The notes beneath the pieces are model-generated. The model did no database searches, was not told where the DNA came from, and worked only from the letters and a program-made list of their open reading frames with translations. Shown one piece after another: positions 2,159 through 5,642 of a DNA stretch of 64,000 nt. The first letter of the stretch is position 1. The number at the start of each line of letters is the position of its first letter. Origin of the DNA: Fimbriimonas ginsengisoli Gsoil 348 (GTDB lineage Bacteria > Armatimonadota > Fimbriimonadia > Fimbriimonadales > Fimbriimonadaceae). The stretch is from contig NZ_CP007139.1 in assembly GCF_000724625.1 (NCBI RefSeq), positions 3,782,001 through 3,846,000 of the forward strand. Direction: 5' to 3'. A program made the position numbers and the translations under genes.

Positions 2159-2436
2159 TCGATATTCGAAACATCCACCCTCTTTCTGATTTCGTCCGGA
2201 ATACGAAGGCCCATATGCAAAGGCTGAAAGAATCCAAGGCGGCAGAGGTCCTCACGGTAAACGGGCGGGCGGAGCTGGTCGTCCAAGACGCGGAAAGCTA
2301 TCAAGAGATGCTTGAAGAGCTCGACAAGGCGCGCCTAATCGAATCGCTTCTCGTAGCCGAGAGGGATTACGAAGCTGGGAAGGCCAGACCGGCAGGCGAA
2401 TTCATCGCAGAAATGAGAGCCAAATATGGGGTTTAG
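2155..2436 (+). CDS. Phd/YefM-family antitoxin
   Basis: 93 aa. The N-terminal half has the Phd/YefM pattern: PLSDFVRNTKAHMQRLKES followed by the VLTVNGRAELVVQDAESYQ strand-helix, the DNA-binding dimer domain. The C-terminal helical segment (EMLEELDKARLIESLL) would wrap the toxin. ATG 2155 overlaps the DinB stop and the gene overlaps the toxin start by 11 nt, the usual order of antitoxin then toxin. Expected role: neutralise the ParE-like toxin and autorepress the pair. Confidence 0.85.
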   Translation: MIDIRNIHPLSDFVRNTKAHMQRLKESKAAEVLTVNGRAELVVQDAESYQEMLEELDKARLIESLLVAERDYEAGKARPAGEFIAEMRAKYGV

Positions 2437-2914
2437 GGTTTTCATCCTGCCCCAAGCCGAAGCAGATGCCGCGGAGTACGCCGCCTATATCGCACAAGAC
2501 TCCCCGAATGCCGCGCTAAAGCGGATCGATGGGTTGTCCGAGATGTTCGAAGCCTTATCCGAAATGCCAGAGCGATTCACCGTTATCCCGGAACAAGGAC
2601 GATTTCGTCGATCATATCGCCAGTTTCACTACCATTCGCATCGAGTCATCTTGTTCGTTGACGATGCCGCCGAAAAGGTCGTTGTGGCCCGTGTATATCA
2701 TGGCTCCCGGGACCTTCTTCGCTCCGGAGATCTGGAGTGTTTGAGAATATTCTCAAACGGGAACCCCTTTCCGGCGTCGATTGTTGAACTGGATATCGAG
2801 AGCTTCGGCAAGGATCGGAGCCGGAAAGCAAAAACGCACATCTCCTATTGCGGACGTCCCCCCGACCCTCAACCCAAACCGGACGTCCGCGATTTTTTTC
2901 GTATTCTCCGGTAG
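2426..2914 (+). CDS. ParE/RelE-superfamily toxin with C-terminal extension
   Basis: 162 aa. Residues 1-100 match the RelE/ParE fold: FILPQAEADAAEYAAYIAQ helix, PNAALKRIDGLSEMFEAL helix, the RQFHYHSHRVILFVDD strand pair and a terminal VVVARVYHGSRDLL strand. Family toxins inhibit gyrase (ParE) or cleave mRNA (RelE). Typical members stop near residue 100. Here the frame continues for about 60 low-similarity residues to within 20 nt of accB, through sequence that includes a possible accB promoter upstream region. Loss of the original stop is the simplest explanation. The Phd-type partner fits a ParE assignment. Confidence 0.8.
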   Translation: MGFRVFILPQAEADAAEYAAYIAQDSPNAALKRIDGLSEMFEALSEMPERFTVIPEQGRFRRSYRQFHYHSHRVILFVDDAAEKVVVARVYHGSRDLLRSGDLECLRIFSNGNPFPASIVELDIESFGKDRSRKAKTHISYCGRPPDPQPKPDVRDFFRILR

Positions 2915-2934: not shown

Positions 2935-3336
2935 ATGTCCGAGTTGGATCTCGATACCGTGCGCCATACGTTGAGCCTCGCCCGTAAGCACGGCTTCGCC
3001 GAGGTCGAACTGTCGATCGGCGAGGATATATTCCAAGCCAAGCTTCTACCTGGCCCCATCTCCGCCCCGGCTTCGGCCGCCCCAGTGGACCTTGCCCCGG
3101 CCGAACCGCTGACTAACCCGATCAAATCGACCCTTGTCGGTTATTATCGCGAAGCCAAGACCCCTCTCGTCGTCGGACGTTTCGTCAAGAAAGGGGACGT
3201 CGTCGCCACCATCGCCGCCCTCGGCATCGCCAACGATATCGAATCCCCTTACTCCGGCGAGATCGTGGAAGTTCTCGTTCAGCCGGACCAGCCGGTCGAA
3301 TATGGCCAGCCGCTCGCGCTCGTGAGGCCCCAATGA
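2935..3336 (+). CDS. accB: AccB-like biotin carboxyl carrier homologue lacking the biotinyl Lys
   Basis: 133 aa. In family members this domain carries biotin between the biotin carboxylase and carboxyltransferase of acetyl-CoA carboxylase. The order is normal: N-terminal helix, Pro/Ala linker (about 40-60), then the lipoyl/biotinyl barrel from 61 (LVGYYREAKTPLVVGRFVKKG...PVEYGQPLALV). At the hairpin where the family has E-A-M-K-M this protein reads A94-A-L-G97-I, so the biotin-accepting Lys is Gly (codon 3223-3225). The protruding thumb is also short. It heads an operon with accC, which supports an ACC origin, but it cannot be biotinylated at the normal site. It may be a scaffold or degenerate paralogue, with a true BCCP elsewhere. 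Confidence 0.82.
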   Translation: MSELDLDTVRHTLSLARKHGFAEVELSIGEDIFQAKLLPGPISAPASAAPVDLAPAEPLTNPIKSTLVGYYREAKTPLVVGRFVKKGDVVATIAALGIANDIESPYSGEIVEVLVQPDQPVEYGQPLALVRPQ

Positions 3337-3716
3337 ACCAACGCGGATCGTTTACGCTCGTCGGAACCATGATCACTCTGGCCATCATCGCCGTTTTGGC
3401 GGGGGTGTTTTTCTTCGGCAGCGGCGTTTTCCAAGCCGGCGGCCCCAAGTCGCCGCGAAAAGACGGGAAGGGAGTCACAATTCCCGGCCTCGCTGAGGCG
3501 AGGGCGCGGGACACGGTCTGCCAAAGCAATCTTTCCCAGGTTCGTCAGTCGATCATGGTCGCCCAGTCGTCCGGCGGCGACGAACTCCCCAAGTCGCTCG
3601 ACGAGCTCCATCTGCCCGCCGAAGTGACTCACTGCTCGATCGGCCACGAGGCGTACACCTACGACCCTGCCACCGGGCAGGTGCACTGTCCGCATCCGGG
3701 GCATGAGAAGTATTGA
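3333..3716 (+). CDS. Pilin-like (type IV prepilin/GspG-like) small protein
   Basis: 127 aa. The N-terminus resembles a class III signal: a short basic leader, then FTLVGTMITLAIIAVLAG, a hydrophobic helix as in type IV pilins and pseudopilins. The residue normally Glu5 (FTLIE) is Gly11 here (FTLVG). The remainder has four Cys (QSN-flanking, HCS, HCPHPGH) and a YTYDPATGQVHCPHPGH end like the C-termini of DUF1559/GspG-type proteins. It overlaps both neighbours: ATGA with accB and TGATG with accC, so it is co-translated with carboxylase genes. Function unknown; likely membrane-anchored. Confidence 0.7.
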   Translation: MNQRGSFTLVGTMITLAIIAVLAGVFFFGSGVFQAGGPKSPRKDGKGVTIPGLAEARARDTVCQSNLSQVRQSIMVAQSSGGDELPKSLDELHLPAEVTHCSIGHEAYTYDPATGQVHCPHPGHEKY

Positions 3717-5071
3717 TGTTAAAGAAGGTCCTCATCGCCAACCGGGGCGAGATCGCGTGCCGAGTCATACGAGCTTGCCGCGAGCTCGATGTTCGTAGCG
3801 TCGCGATCTATTCCGAAGCCGACCGGGAAAGCCTCCATACGAAAATCGCCGACGAGGCGATCTGCGTTGGCGCCGGCTCCAACTCCGACTCTTACCTCAA
3901 CCTCGCCAACGTGCTGATGGCGTGCCAGATCTCGGGCGCCGAAGCCGTTCATCCCGGTTACGGCTACTTTAGCGAGCGCGCGAACTTCGCGGTCGCGCTT
4001 AACTCGATCGGTATTCAGTTCATCGGCCCGCCTCCCGACGCCATCGAGGCGATGGGGGACAAGGCGAGCGCCAAGCGGGCGGCGATCGCTTCCAACTGTC
4101 CGGTCGTCCCCGGTTCGCCCGGCATCGTGATGAACGAGAACGACGCACTGGACGTCGCCGAGGAGATCGGCTATCCGGTCCTCCTCAAGGCGGTCGCCGG
4201 CGGCGGCGGCCGCGGCATCCGGCGGGTCGACGAACCCGAGGAGCTGGCCGGCCTTTGGAAGACTGCCCAAGCCGAGGCCCAGGCGAGCTTCGGGTCGGGC
4301 GAGATTCTGATCGAGAAGTGCGTGATCAACCCGCGCCACGTCGAGATCCAGGTCATCGGCGACTCGTTCGGGAATATGGTTTACCTTGGCGAGCGCGAGT
4401 GCTCGATCCAAAACCTGCGCCACCAAAAGCTGATCGAAGAGGCTCCGTATGCCGCTCTTCCCGAGGAGGTTCGTCGCACAATGGGAGAAGCCGCGGTGCG
4501 AGTAGCCCAGAGCGTCGGCTACCAAAACGCCGGCACCGTCGAATTCCTCGTCGACAGCAACAACGATTTCTACTTCCTCGAGATGAATACACGGCTTCAA
4601 GTCGAGCATCCGGTCACGGAAGAGATCACCGGTATTGACTTGGTCCATCTGATGCTTCGAATCGCCAGCGGGGAACCGCTGCCGATCCGCCAGGAGGACG
4701 TTCGATTGAAAGGCCACGCGATCGAGGCCCGGATCACCGCCCAAGACCCCGACAAAGAGTTCGCTCCCAGCACGGGCAAGATCACCAAGTGGTGCGCCCC
4801 TATGGGCCGGGGGATTCGTATGGAGACCCATTGCTACGCCGGCTTTACGGTTAGCCCGTTCTACGATCCGATGCTCGCCAAGCTGATCGTCCGAGGCGAA
4901 AACCGGGACGAGGCGGTGCGAAAACTGCAAGCGGCCCTCTATGAGTTCGAAGTGGAAGGAATCGCGACCAATATTCCATTCCTCCGCCGACTTTGCGCCT
5001 CGGAAGGGTATGTCGCTGGCGAATTCGACACCGGCTACGTCGGCCGCTTCCTCTCCGGGGAAGAGTCCTAA
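3716..5071 (+). CDS. accC: Acetyl-CoA carboxylase biotin carboxylase subunit
   Basis: 451 aa, usual length. It carboxylates biotin on BCCP with ATP and bicarbonate, the first step of malonyl-CoA formation for fatty acid synthesis. The N-terminal domain starts KVLIANRGEIACRVIRA. ATP-grasp features include the Gly-rich loop KAVAGGGGRGIRRV (near 160), the metal-binding acidic segment FYFLEMNTRLQVEHPVTE (near 285) with the catalytic Arg, and the C-terminal biotin carboxylase domain (GHAIEARITAQDP). The start is ATG 3716, sharing bases with the preceding stop; an in-frame TTG lies at 3713. Catalytic residues look intact, so this subunit is expected to work even though the adjacent AccB lacks its Lys. 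Confidence 0.96.
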   Translation: MLKKVLIANRGEIACRVIRACRELDVRSVAIYSEADRESLHTKIADEAICVGAGSNSDSYLNLANVLMACQISGAEAVHPGYGYFSERANFAVALNSIGIQFIGPPPDAIEAMGDKASAKRAAIASNCPVVPGSPGIVMNENDALDVAEEIGYPVLLKAVAGGGGRGIRRVDEPEELAGLWKTAQAEAQASFGSGEILIEKCVINPRHVEIQVIGDSFGNMVYLGERECSIQNLRHQKLIEEAPYAALPEEVRRTMGEAAVRVAQSVGYQNAGTVEFLVDSNNDFYFLEMNTRLQVEHPVTEEITGIDLVHLMLRIASGEPLPIRQEDVRLKGHAIEARITAQDPDKEFAPSTGKITKWCAPMGRGIRMETHCYAGFTVSPFYDPMLAKLIVRGENRDEAVRKLQAALYEFEVEGIATNIPFLRRLCASEGYVAGEFDTGYVGRFLSGEES

Positions 5072-5072
5072 G

Positions 5073-5642
5073 ATGCTTAGTCGCTCACGCCGCGTCGCCC
5101 GTGAAGGCGCCTTGCGCGCGCTTTACGAAATTGAGGTCGGCAAGTCCGCCGTCCGGGACGCCATCGAATCGACGATCTACGTGCAGGAGCTGTCCCACGA
5201 CTTGGCGGACTATATGGAGCGGCTGGTTCTCGGAGTGAACGAGCATCGGCGGCAGCTTGACGCGCTGATTGCCAAGTATCTAAAGGATTACGACTTTAGC
5301 CGCCTCGCCACCGTCGATCGAAACCTCCTTCGGATCGCCACTTTCGAAATCCTCCACGTCCCGGAGATGCCGCCCGCGGTCAGCATCAACGAGGCGATCG
5401 AGATCGCGAAACGCTACTCCACGTTCGAAAGCGGAAAGTTTATCAACGGCGTACTCGGCCGCCTGCTGCTGGACACGCCAAAGGCAAACTGGGACCCAAC
5501 CCAGGCTCCCGCCGAGCAGTCGGAAGAGATCGTAAGGTCGCCGGAGCCGGTCGAAGTCGAAGAGATCGACGTCGCCCCTGAAGATGAATCGTTCCGAGCC
5601 GCCAGCCGCATCGGCGGCTGGAAGCTTAAAGCGGACGATTAG
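5073..5642 (+). CDS. nusB: Transcription antitermination factor NusB
   Basis: 189 aa from ATG 5073, one base after the accC stop. NusB binds boxA RNA with NusE/S10 and prevents Rho-dependent termination in rRNA operons. The all-helical NusB core occupies residues 1-135: SRRVAREGALRALYEIE at the N-terminus, DYDFSRLATVDRNLLRIATFEIL in the middle, and PAVSINEAIEIAKRYSTFESGKFINGVLGRL at the conserved end. About 50 extra residues follow, acidic and Pro/Glu-rich, and probably disordered. Coupling of nusB with acc genes is known in several phyla. Confidence 0.93.
   Translation: MLSRSRRVAREGALRALYEIEVGKSAVRDAIESTIYVQELSHDLADYMERLVLGVNEHRRQLDALIAKYLKDYDFSRLATVDRNLLRIATFEILHVPEMPPAVSINEAIEIAKRYSTFESGKFINGVLGRLLLDTPKANWDPTQAPAEQSEEIVRSPEPVEVEEIDVAPEDESFRAASRIGGWKLKADD

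Follow-up and report, generated by a model that had tools for sequence, protein, structure and literature searches.

A biotin carboxyl carrier protein homologue without the biotinylated lysine in the accC operon of Fimbriimonas ginsengisoli Gsoil 348 and other Armatimonadota

The window analysed here, i.e. the whole stretch of 64,000 nucleotides of Fimbriimonas ginsengisoli Gsoil 348 DNA, carries in one operon with accC a gene for a homologue of the biotin carboxyl carrier protein (BCCP) of acetyl-CoA carboxylase (ACC) that has glycine at the site of biotin attachment. This raises the questions of what such a protein, termed BCCP2 in the following, might do beside a biotin carboxylase, and of which protein carries the biotin instead. 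The features of the locus are:

2935-3336, plus strand: accB-like gene for BCCP2, a non-biotinylatable BCCP paralogue of 133 amino acids (TIGR00531; PF00364; best solved-structure match 4hr7_B)
2944-3045, plus strand: N-terminal helix and beta-hairpin domain, residues 4-37, counterpart of the E. coli BCCP N-terminus (alignment with E. coli AccB 1-34)
3121-3327, plus strand: barrel of the biotinyl/lipoyl type, residues 63-131, lacking the 'thumb' insert of E. coli BCCP (PF00364, alignment, Foldseek)
3223-3225, plus strand: GGC codon of Gly97, at the site of the biotinylated lysine (alignment to E. coli BCCP Lys122)
3333-3716, plus strand: prepilin-like small protein (PF07963, 20.4 bits, just under the cut-off of 21.2)
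3716-5071, plus strand: accC, biotin carboxylase (NF006367, 645.7 bits, over the cut-off)
5073-5642, plus strand: nusB (TIGR01951, PF01029)

TIGR00531 matches residues 40-131 of the first gene product (E=5e-15) with a score of 56.2 bits, which does not reach the family cut-off of 115.2 bits; BCCP1, the lysine-bearing carrier of the same genome, likewise remains under this cut-off (91.3 bits). The Pfam Biotin_lipoyl match (PF00364, 36.7 bits) exceeds its cut-off. By sequence profile, the best solved-structure match of the BCCP2 family is the full-length E. coli BCCP 4hr7_B, at positions 3-133. A structure model of BCCP2 (pLDDT 62), in which the helix, hairpin and strands are visible, is too weak for finer reading; its N-terminus is predicted, with modest confidence, to form a helix (residues 6-18) and two strands (23-28 and 31-36), and Foldseek returned the expected BCCPs 1bdo and 4hr7 with modest scores. 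In the alignment, E. coli residues 96-100 (the thumb) have no counterpart in the barrel.

The hairpin reads AALGIANDI. Gly97 aligns with E. coli Lys122, and the preliminary description was correct in placing glycine (GGC) at the biotin-attachment site; the E-x-M-K-M motif also lacks its Glu-3 and Met-1, and the only lysines of the protein are K18, K36, K64, K75, K85 and K86, none of them in the hairpin. Measured against a functional BCCP, the protein thus has the N-terminal domain, the barrel and the accC operon, and lacks the E-x-M-K-M lysine. A sequencing error or a recent decay in this lineage was ruled out by the presence of glycine in all 30 homologues of a first locus set (Fimbriimonadia and one genus of family f5, Chthonomonas-like), in which the Gly97 column is one of only five invariant columns; A95 is conserved together with G97 in the altered hairpin of the Fimbriimonadia.

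The four genes are tightly packed, with overlaps of 4 bp (BCCP2 and the prepilin-like ORF) and 1 bp (prepilin-like ORF and accC), and with nusB starting directly after accC. The accBC operon described earlier stands as a shared operon, with the correction that accB and accC are not adjacent, the prepilin-like ORF (3333-3716) lying between them. AccC shares 50% identity with its E. coli counterpart, with which it agrees at all 16 catalytic or ATP/bicarbonate/biotin-site residues checked, so that the statement that it keeps its catalytic motifs is borne out. The prepilin-like protein is kept in most of the corresponding operons of the phylum, with the C-terminal signature C..NL.Q.R ... CP....Y.YDP.TG.V.CPHPGHE.Y; the reason for a pilin-like protein within an ACC operon is unexplained.

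The genome, which is complete (one contig of 5.23 Mb), encodes a canonical carrier, BCCP1 (motif EAMKVFNEI), directly upstream of homoserine dehydrogenase. The supposition that a second, true BCCP exists was confirmed when the genome was searched for another lysine-bearing copy, through this EAMKV protein and its syntenic copies across the phylum, and a different carrier chemistry for the ACC of this lineage, which had been offered as the alternative, is not needed. Loss of ACC function was also ruled out, as BCCP1, accC and accA/accD-type CT genes are all present. A third carrier, upstream of a hydroxymethylglutaryl-CoA-lyase-like gene, looks from its context like a BCCP of the methylcrotonyl-CoA carboxylase (MCC) type. 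An ORF joining enoyl-CoA hydratase and biotin carboxylase adjoins BCCP1 (L113, 8905-11145, minus strand; genome C1 near 5.227 Mb) and, again from context, looks like the MCC type.

The distribution of these genes was followed with a profile of 30 lysine-less proteins, which was searched against 201 Armatimonadota genomes (other phyla were outside the scope); 197 of these yielded BCCP genes, as a rule two per genome, and motifs and neighbours were read from the regions around the matches, and gene starts outside the window were set by rule of thumb. Two syntenic loci were found. Locus A comprises BCCP2, the prepilin-like gene, accC and nusB, and is probably the ancestral accB site, because efp lies upstream in most lineages outside the Fimbriimonadia; locus B comprises BCCP1 and homoserine dehydrogenase. 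The biotinyl position of locus B is lysine in 40 of the 40 genomes read. That of locus A is lysine in 47 and another residue in 90 of 137 genomes (Gly 53, Arg 21, Thr 4, Asp 4, His 3, Asn 3, Ser 2; three of the 137 records come from another collection, so that some genomes may be counted twice). Of the 34 genomes with readings at both loci, all have lysine in BCCP1 and 14 have it in BCCP2.

Every Fimbriimonadia BCCP2 read carries glycine, and a conserved, operon-linked and non-biotinylatable BCCP, as considered in the preliminary description, is thereby substantiated for this group; the absence of lysine from AccB orthologues, which had been named as a check, holds for all Fimbriimonadia read, so that the condition named for refutation, lysine in close relatives, does not apply among them, and it does not extend to the deeper phylum, where many orthologues have the residue. 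There is no lysine within three residues of the biotinyl position in 78 of the 90 lysine-less BCCP2. In eight lysine-less genomes of families f11, f21, f30 and f39, a lysine is located one residue past the canonical place, e.g. EALGKWTD and EALRKLTD (L155, L156, L160, L187, L192-L194, L205); biotinylation at this lysine is not expected, in the absence of biotinylation data, and such a shift by one place does not apply to the window protein. Plasmid matches were distant (less than 30% identity among the matches listed), and the two that were translated (E. coli, Levilactobacillus) are ordinary lysine-bearing BCCPs. No description of a lysine-less bacterial BCCP was found in the open-licence literature.

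On an AccC tree (124 rows; quick tree, LG+G4), the lysine/non-lysine character changes at least 13 times, with at least 10 changes forced by strongly supported (starred) branches, and the residue itself changes at least 24 times; Fimbriimonadia and family f5 form one all-Gly group. Parsimony by itself leaves the direction of the lysine/non-lysine changes undetermined. Lysine is likely the ancestral state of BCCP2 and was lost many times in parallel, because many BCCP2 orthologues of the deeper phylum have it, and since regain of a biotinylation motif is unlikely, most changes were taken as losses. In a gene tree built without the hairpin, a single branch divides BCCP1 from BCCP2, which are therefore paralogues and not a single relocating gene; the support for this split is only an SH-aLRT of 86.

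The loss of constraint in lysine-less BCCP2 is mainly at the biotinyl hairpin, whose five columns have a mean entropy of 1.92 bits, versus 0.58 bits in lysine-bearing BCCP2; outside the hairpin the rise is just 0.2-0.4 bits. The N-terminal domain (columns 9-37) is kept in 84 of 87 lysine-less orthologues, and V68, G69, G81, G87, G108, V121 and G124 are found at 91-100%. Lysine-less BCCP2 is under purifying selection, with dN/dS of about 0.04-0.35 for close pairs (versus 0.08-0.43 for lysine-bearing pairs), and BCCP2 evolves faster than AccC. The thumb insert is filled in 40 of 40 BCCP1 and missing in 93 of 134 BCCP2, irrespective of lysine; Cronan is said to have found in 2001 that the thumb is essential in E. 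coli. By inference, this looks like a complementary division of an ancestral BCCP, with thumb and lysine in BCCP1, and the accC linkage and a VEYGQPL edge in BCCP2.

One count gave a single Biotin_carb_C gene for 33 of 35 genomes, and three more genomes outside the Fimbriimonadaceae also have only one; in nearly all cases this sole gene is the accC beside BCCP2. BCCP1 is the only ACC-type carrier found where BCCP2 lacks lysine. A single accC beside a lysine-less BCCP2, the arrangement in most of the lysine-less genomes counted outside the Fimbriimonadia, implies that AccC must carboxylate BCCP1. The Fimbriimonadaceae have a second, longer biotin carboxylase, which in the genome of the window adjoins BCCP1, so that the case for AccC pairing with BCCP1 is weaker there than elsewhere in the phylum. 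In two reduced Fimbriimonadaceae genomes (1.5 Mb) of one genus (G177 and G181; L219-L222, L231-L236), BCCP1, BCCP2 and the ACC-type accC are all missing; what they retain is a biotin carboxylase of the MCC type together with a small carrier and a fused AccD-AccA-like CT, and the MCC-type carboxylase and carrier may serve their ACC. In G177, enoyl-CoA hydratase and biotin carboxylase are separate, overlapping genes.

The explanation that we favour, with a confidence only a little beyond an even balance, is that lysine-less BCCP2 is a non-catalytic structural or regulatory subunit of ACC in the BC-BCCP subcomplex, with the biotin on BCCP1. The absence of lysine, the conservation, the synteny of the two loci, the parallel losses, the purifying selection and the intact, usually single accC are observed; that the protein binds physically and acts in structure or regulation is inferred, and there are no interaction or expression data. 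A BCCP paralogue would have given up biotin and been retained as an ACC subunit without catalytic function, which most likely binds AccC via the retained N-terminal domain and barrel, and perhaps also the N-terminus of the true BCCP; the BC-BCCP subcomplex would thereby be scaffolded or tuned. The biotin shuttle would be performed by BCCP1, encoded beside homoserine dehydrogenase, and not by BCCP2. The putative origin is a duplication with many parallel lysine losses, i.e. repeated subfunctionalisation, probably separate from that of plant BADC. The joint loss of BCCP1, BCCP2 and the ACC-type accC in the two reduced genomes counts for an ACC-subunit role; the lysine of BCCP2 in 47 genomes counts against it, as biotinylation at this locus is not forbidden there. 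For the phylum-wide form of the proposal, in which an operon-linked BCCP has on at least 10 independent occasions become an obligatory, non-biotinylated part of an ACC with BC, BCCP1 and pseudo-BCCP, we see the chances as balanced.

Autoregulation and competitive inhibition are the main rivals of an assembly or tuning subunit. BCCP2 could mainly be an autoregulator, which gauges or restrains AccC levels and needs no biotin for this: E. coli AccB is known to autoregulate its operon, its N-terminal domain repressing accBC (PMC3896788), and BCCP2 is the first gene of the accC operon and has kept the domain. There are no DNA-binding data, however, and the conservation of the whole barrel (V68-G69, VExGQ, turn glycines) would be left unexplained; we regard this role as improbable.

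The second rival follows from the older view of BADC, a protein of the plant plastid enzyme that is 25-30% identical to BCCP, lacks the AMKL motif, has both BC and BCCP as interaction partners, and aids assembly (PMC11926652). BADC was proposed first as an inhibitor and later as the 'glue' of the BC-BCCP subcomplex, assembly versus inhibition of ACC being disputed, and, according to that paper, belongs to the plant enzyme alone (PMC11926652). BCCP2 might accordingly compete with BCCP1 for AccC and damp ACC, given its same fold and its linkage to AccC, and given the inhibitory role proposed for BADC from in vivo studies (PMC11926652). The same paper itself argues for assembly, however, and a protein that is kept in nearly every genome, and co-expressed (operon) with the usually sole accC, is more suggestive of a constitutive subunit than of a brake; we consider inhibition unlikely, to the same degree as autoregulation.

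Neutral decay, by which BCCP2 became redundant once BCCP1 had taken over and is slowly degenerating, would agree with the loss of the key residue on many separate occasions and with an evolution faster than that of AccC, but is very doubtful in view of the intact ORFs in the orthologues read, a dN/dS well below 1, a domain otherwise conserved and a synteny maintained throughout the phylum, and the conserved A95 and G97 in the changed hairpin of the Fimbriimonadia. A task unrelated to ACC, e.g. with the prepilin-like neighbour, whose conserved ORF separates BCCP2 from accC in most of the phylum, is scarcely credible for a protein homologous over its full length to the ACC BCCP, found with accC in nearly all genomes and missing along with accC and BCCP1 from the reduced ones.

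As a non-catalytic ACC subunit, BCCP2 would resemble plant BADC, which is also a BCCP paralogue without the biotinylated lysine in a heteromeric ACC that has kept a true BCCP, and for which the same role, assembling or tuning the BC-BCCP subcomplex, has been proposed; the present case agrees with the BADC type in its conserved lysine-less BCCP-like protein and in the true BCCP that the genome encodes besides it, while for physical interaction with BC and BCCP the evidence is confined to the operon linkage and the kept N-terminal domain. Unlike BADC, BCCP2 is bacterial, is encoded in the accC operon and lost its lysine many times, with lysine-bearing orthologues persisting in the phylum. These parallel losses argue for an independent origin, which is probable, though no BADC sequences were compared. 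With bacterial AccB (TIGR00531; E. coli AccB, PDB 4hr7), BCCP2 shares the N-terminal domain, linker and barrel, and an operon of the accB-accC-nusB type (in the phylum mostly with efp upstream), but it lacks the motif lysine, Glu-3, Met-1 and the thumb, and is under the family cut-off. The non-catalytic subunits of bacterial acyl-CoA carboxylases are small proteins that are not known to be related to it. Described as 'glue' (PMC11926652), they share the idea of an assembly subunit, whereas BCCP2 is itself a former carrier.

If the proposal is true, a bacterial heteromeric ACC can need a BADC-like assembly subunit, such a state evolves repeatedly, and BADC, so far described only in plants, has a non-plant counterpart. 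The accC-linked 'accB' would then be misannotated as the biotin carrier in much of the phylum, the real carrier being encoded beside homoserine dehydrogenase. Lysine-bearing and lysine-less orthologues within one phylum represent a series of natural experiments on roles of BCCP beyond biotin carriage.

Just upstream of the acc operon, a ParE-type toxin gene was found (2426-2914, plus strand; PF05016, 49 bits). It is preceded by an ORF ending at 2436, the C-terminal part of which resembles a Phd/YefM-type antitoxin.
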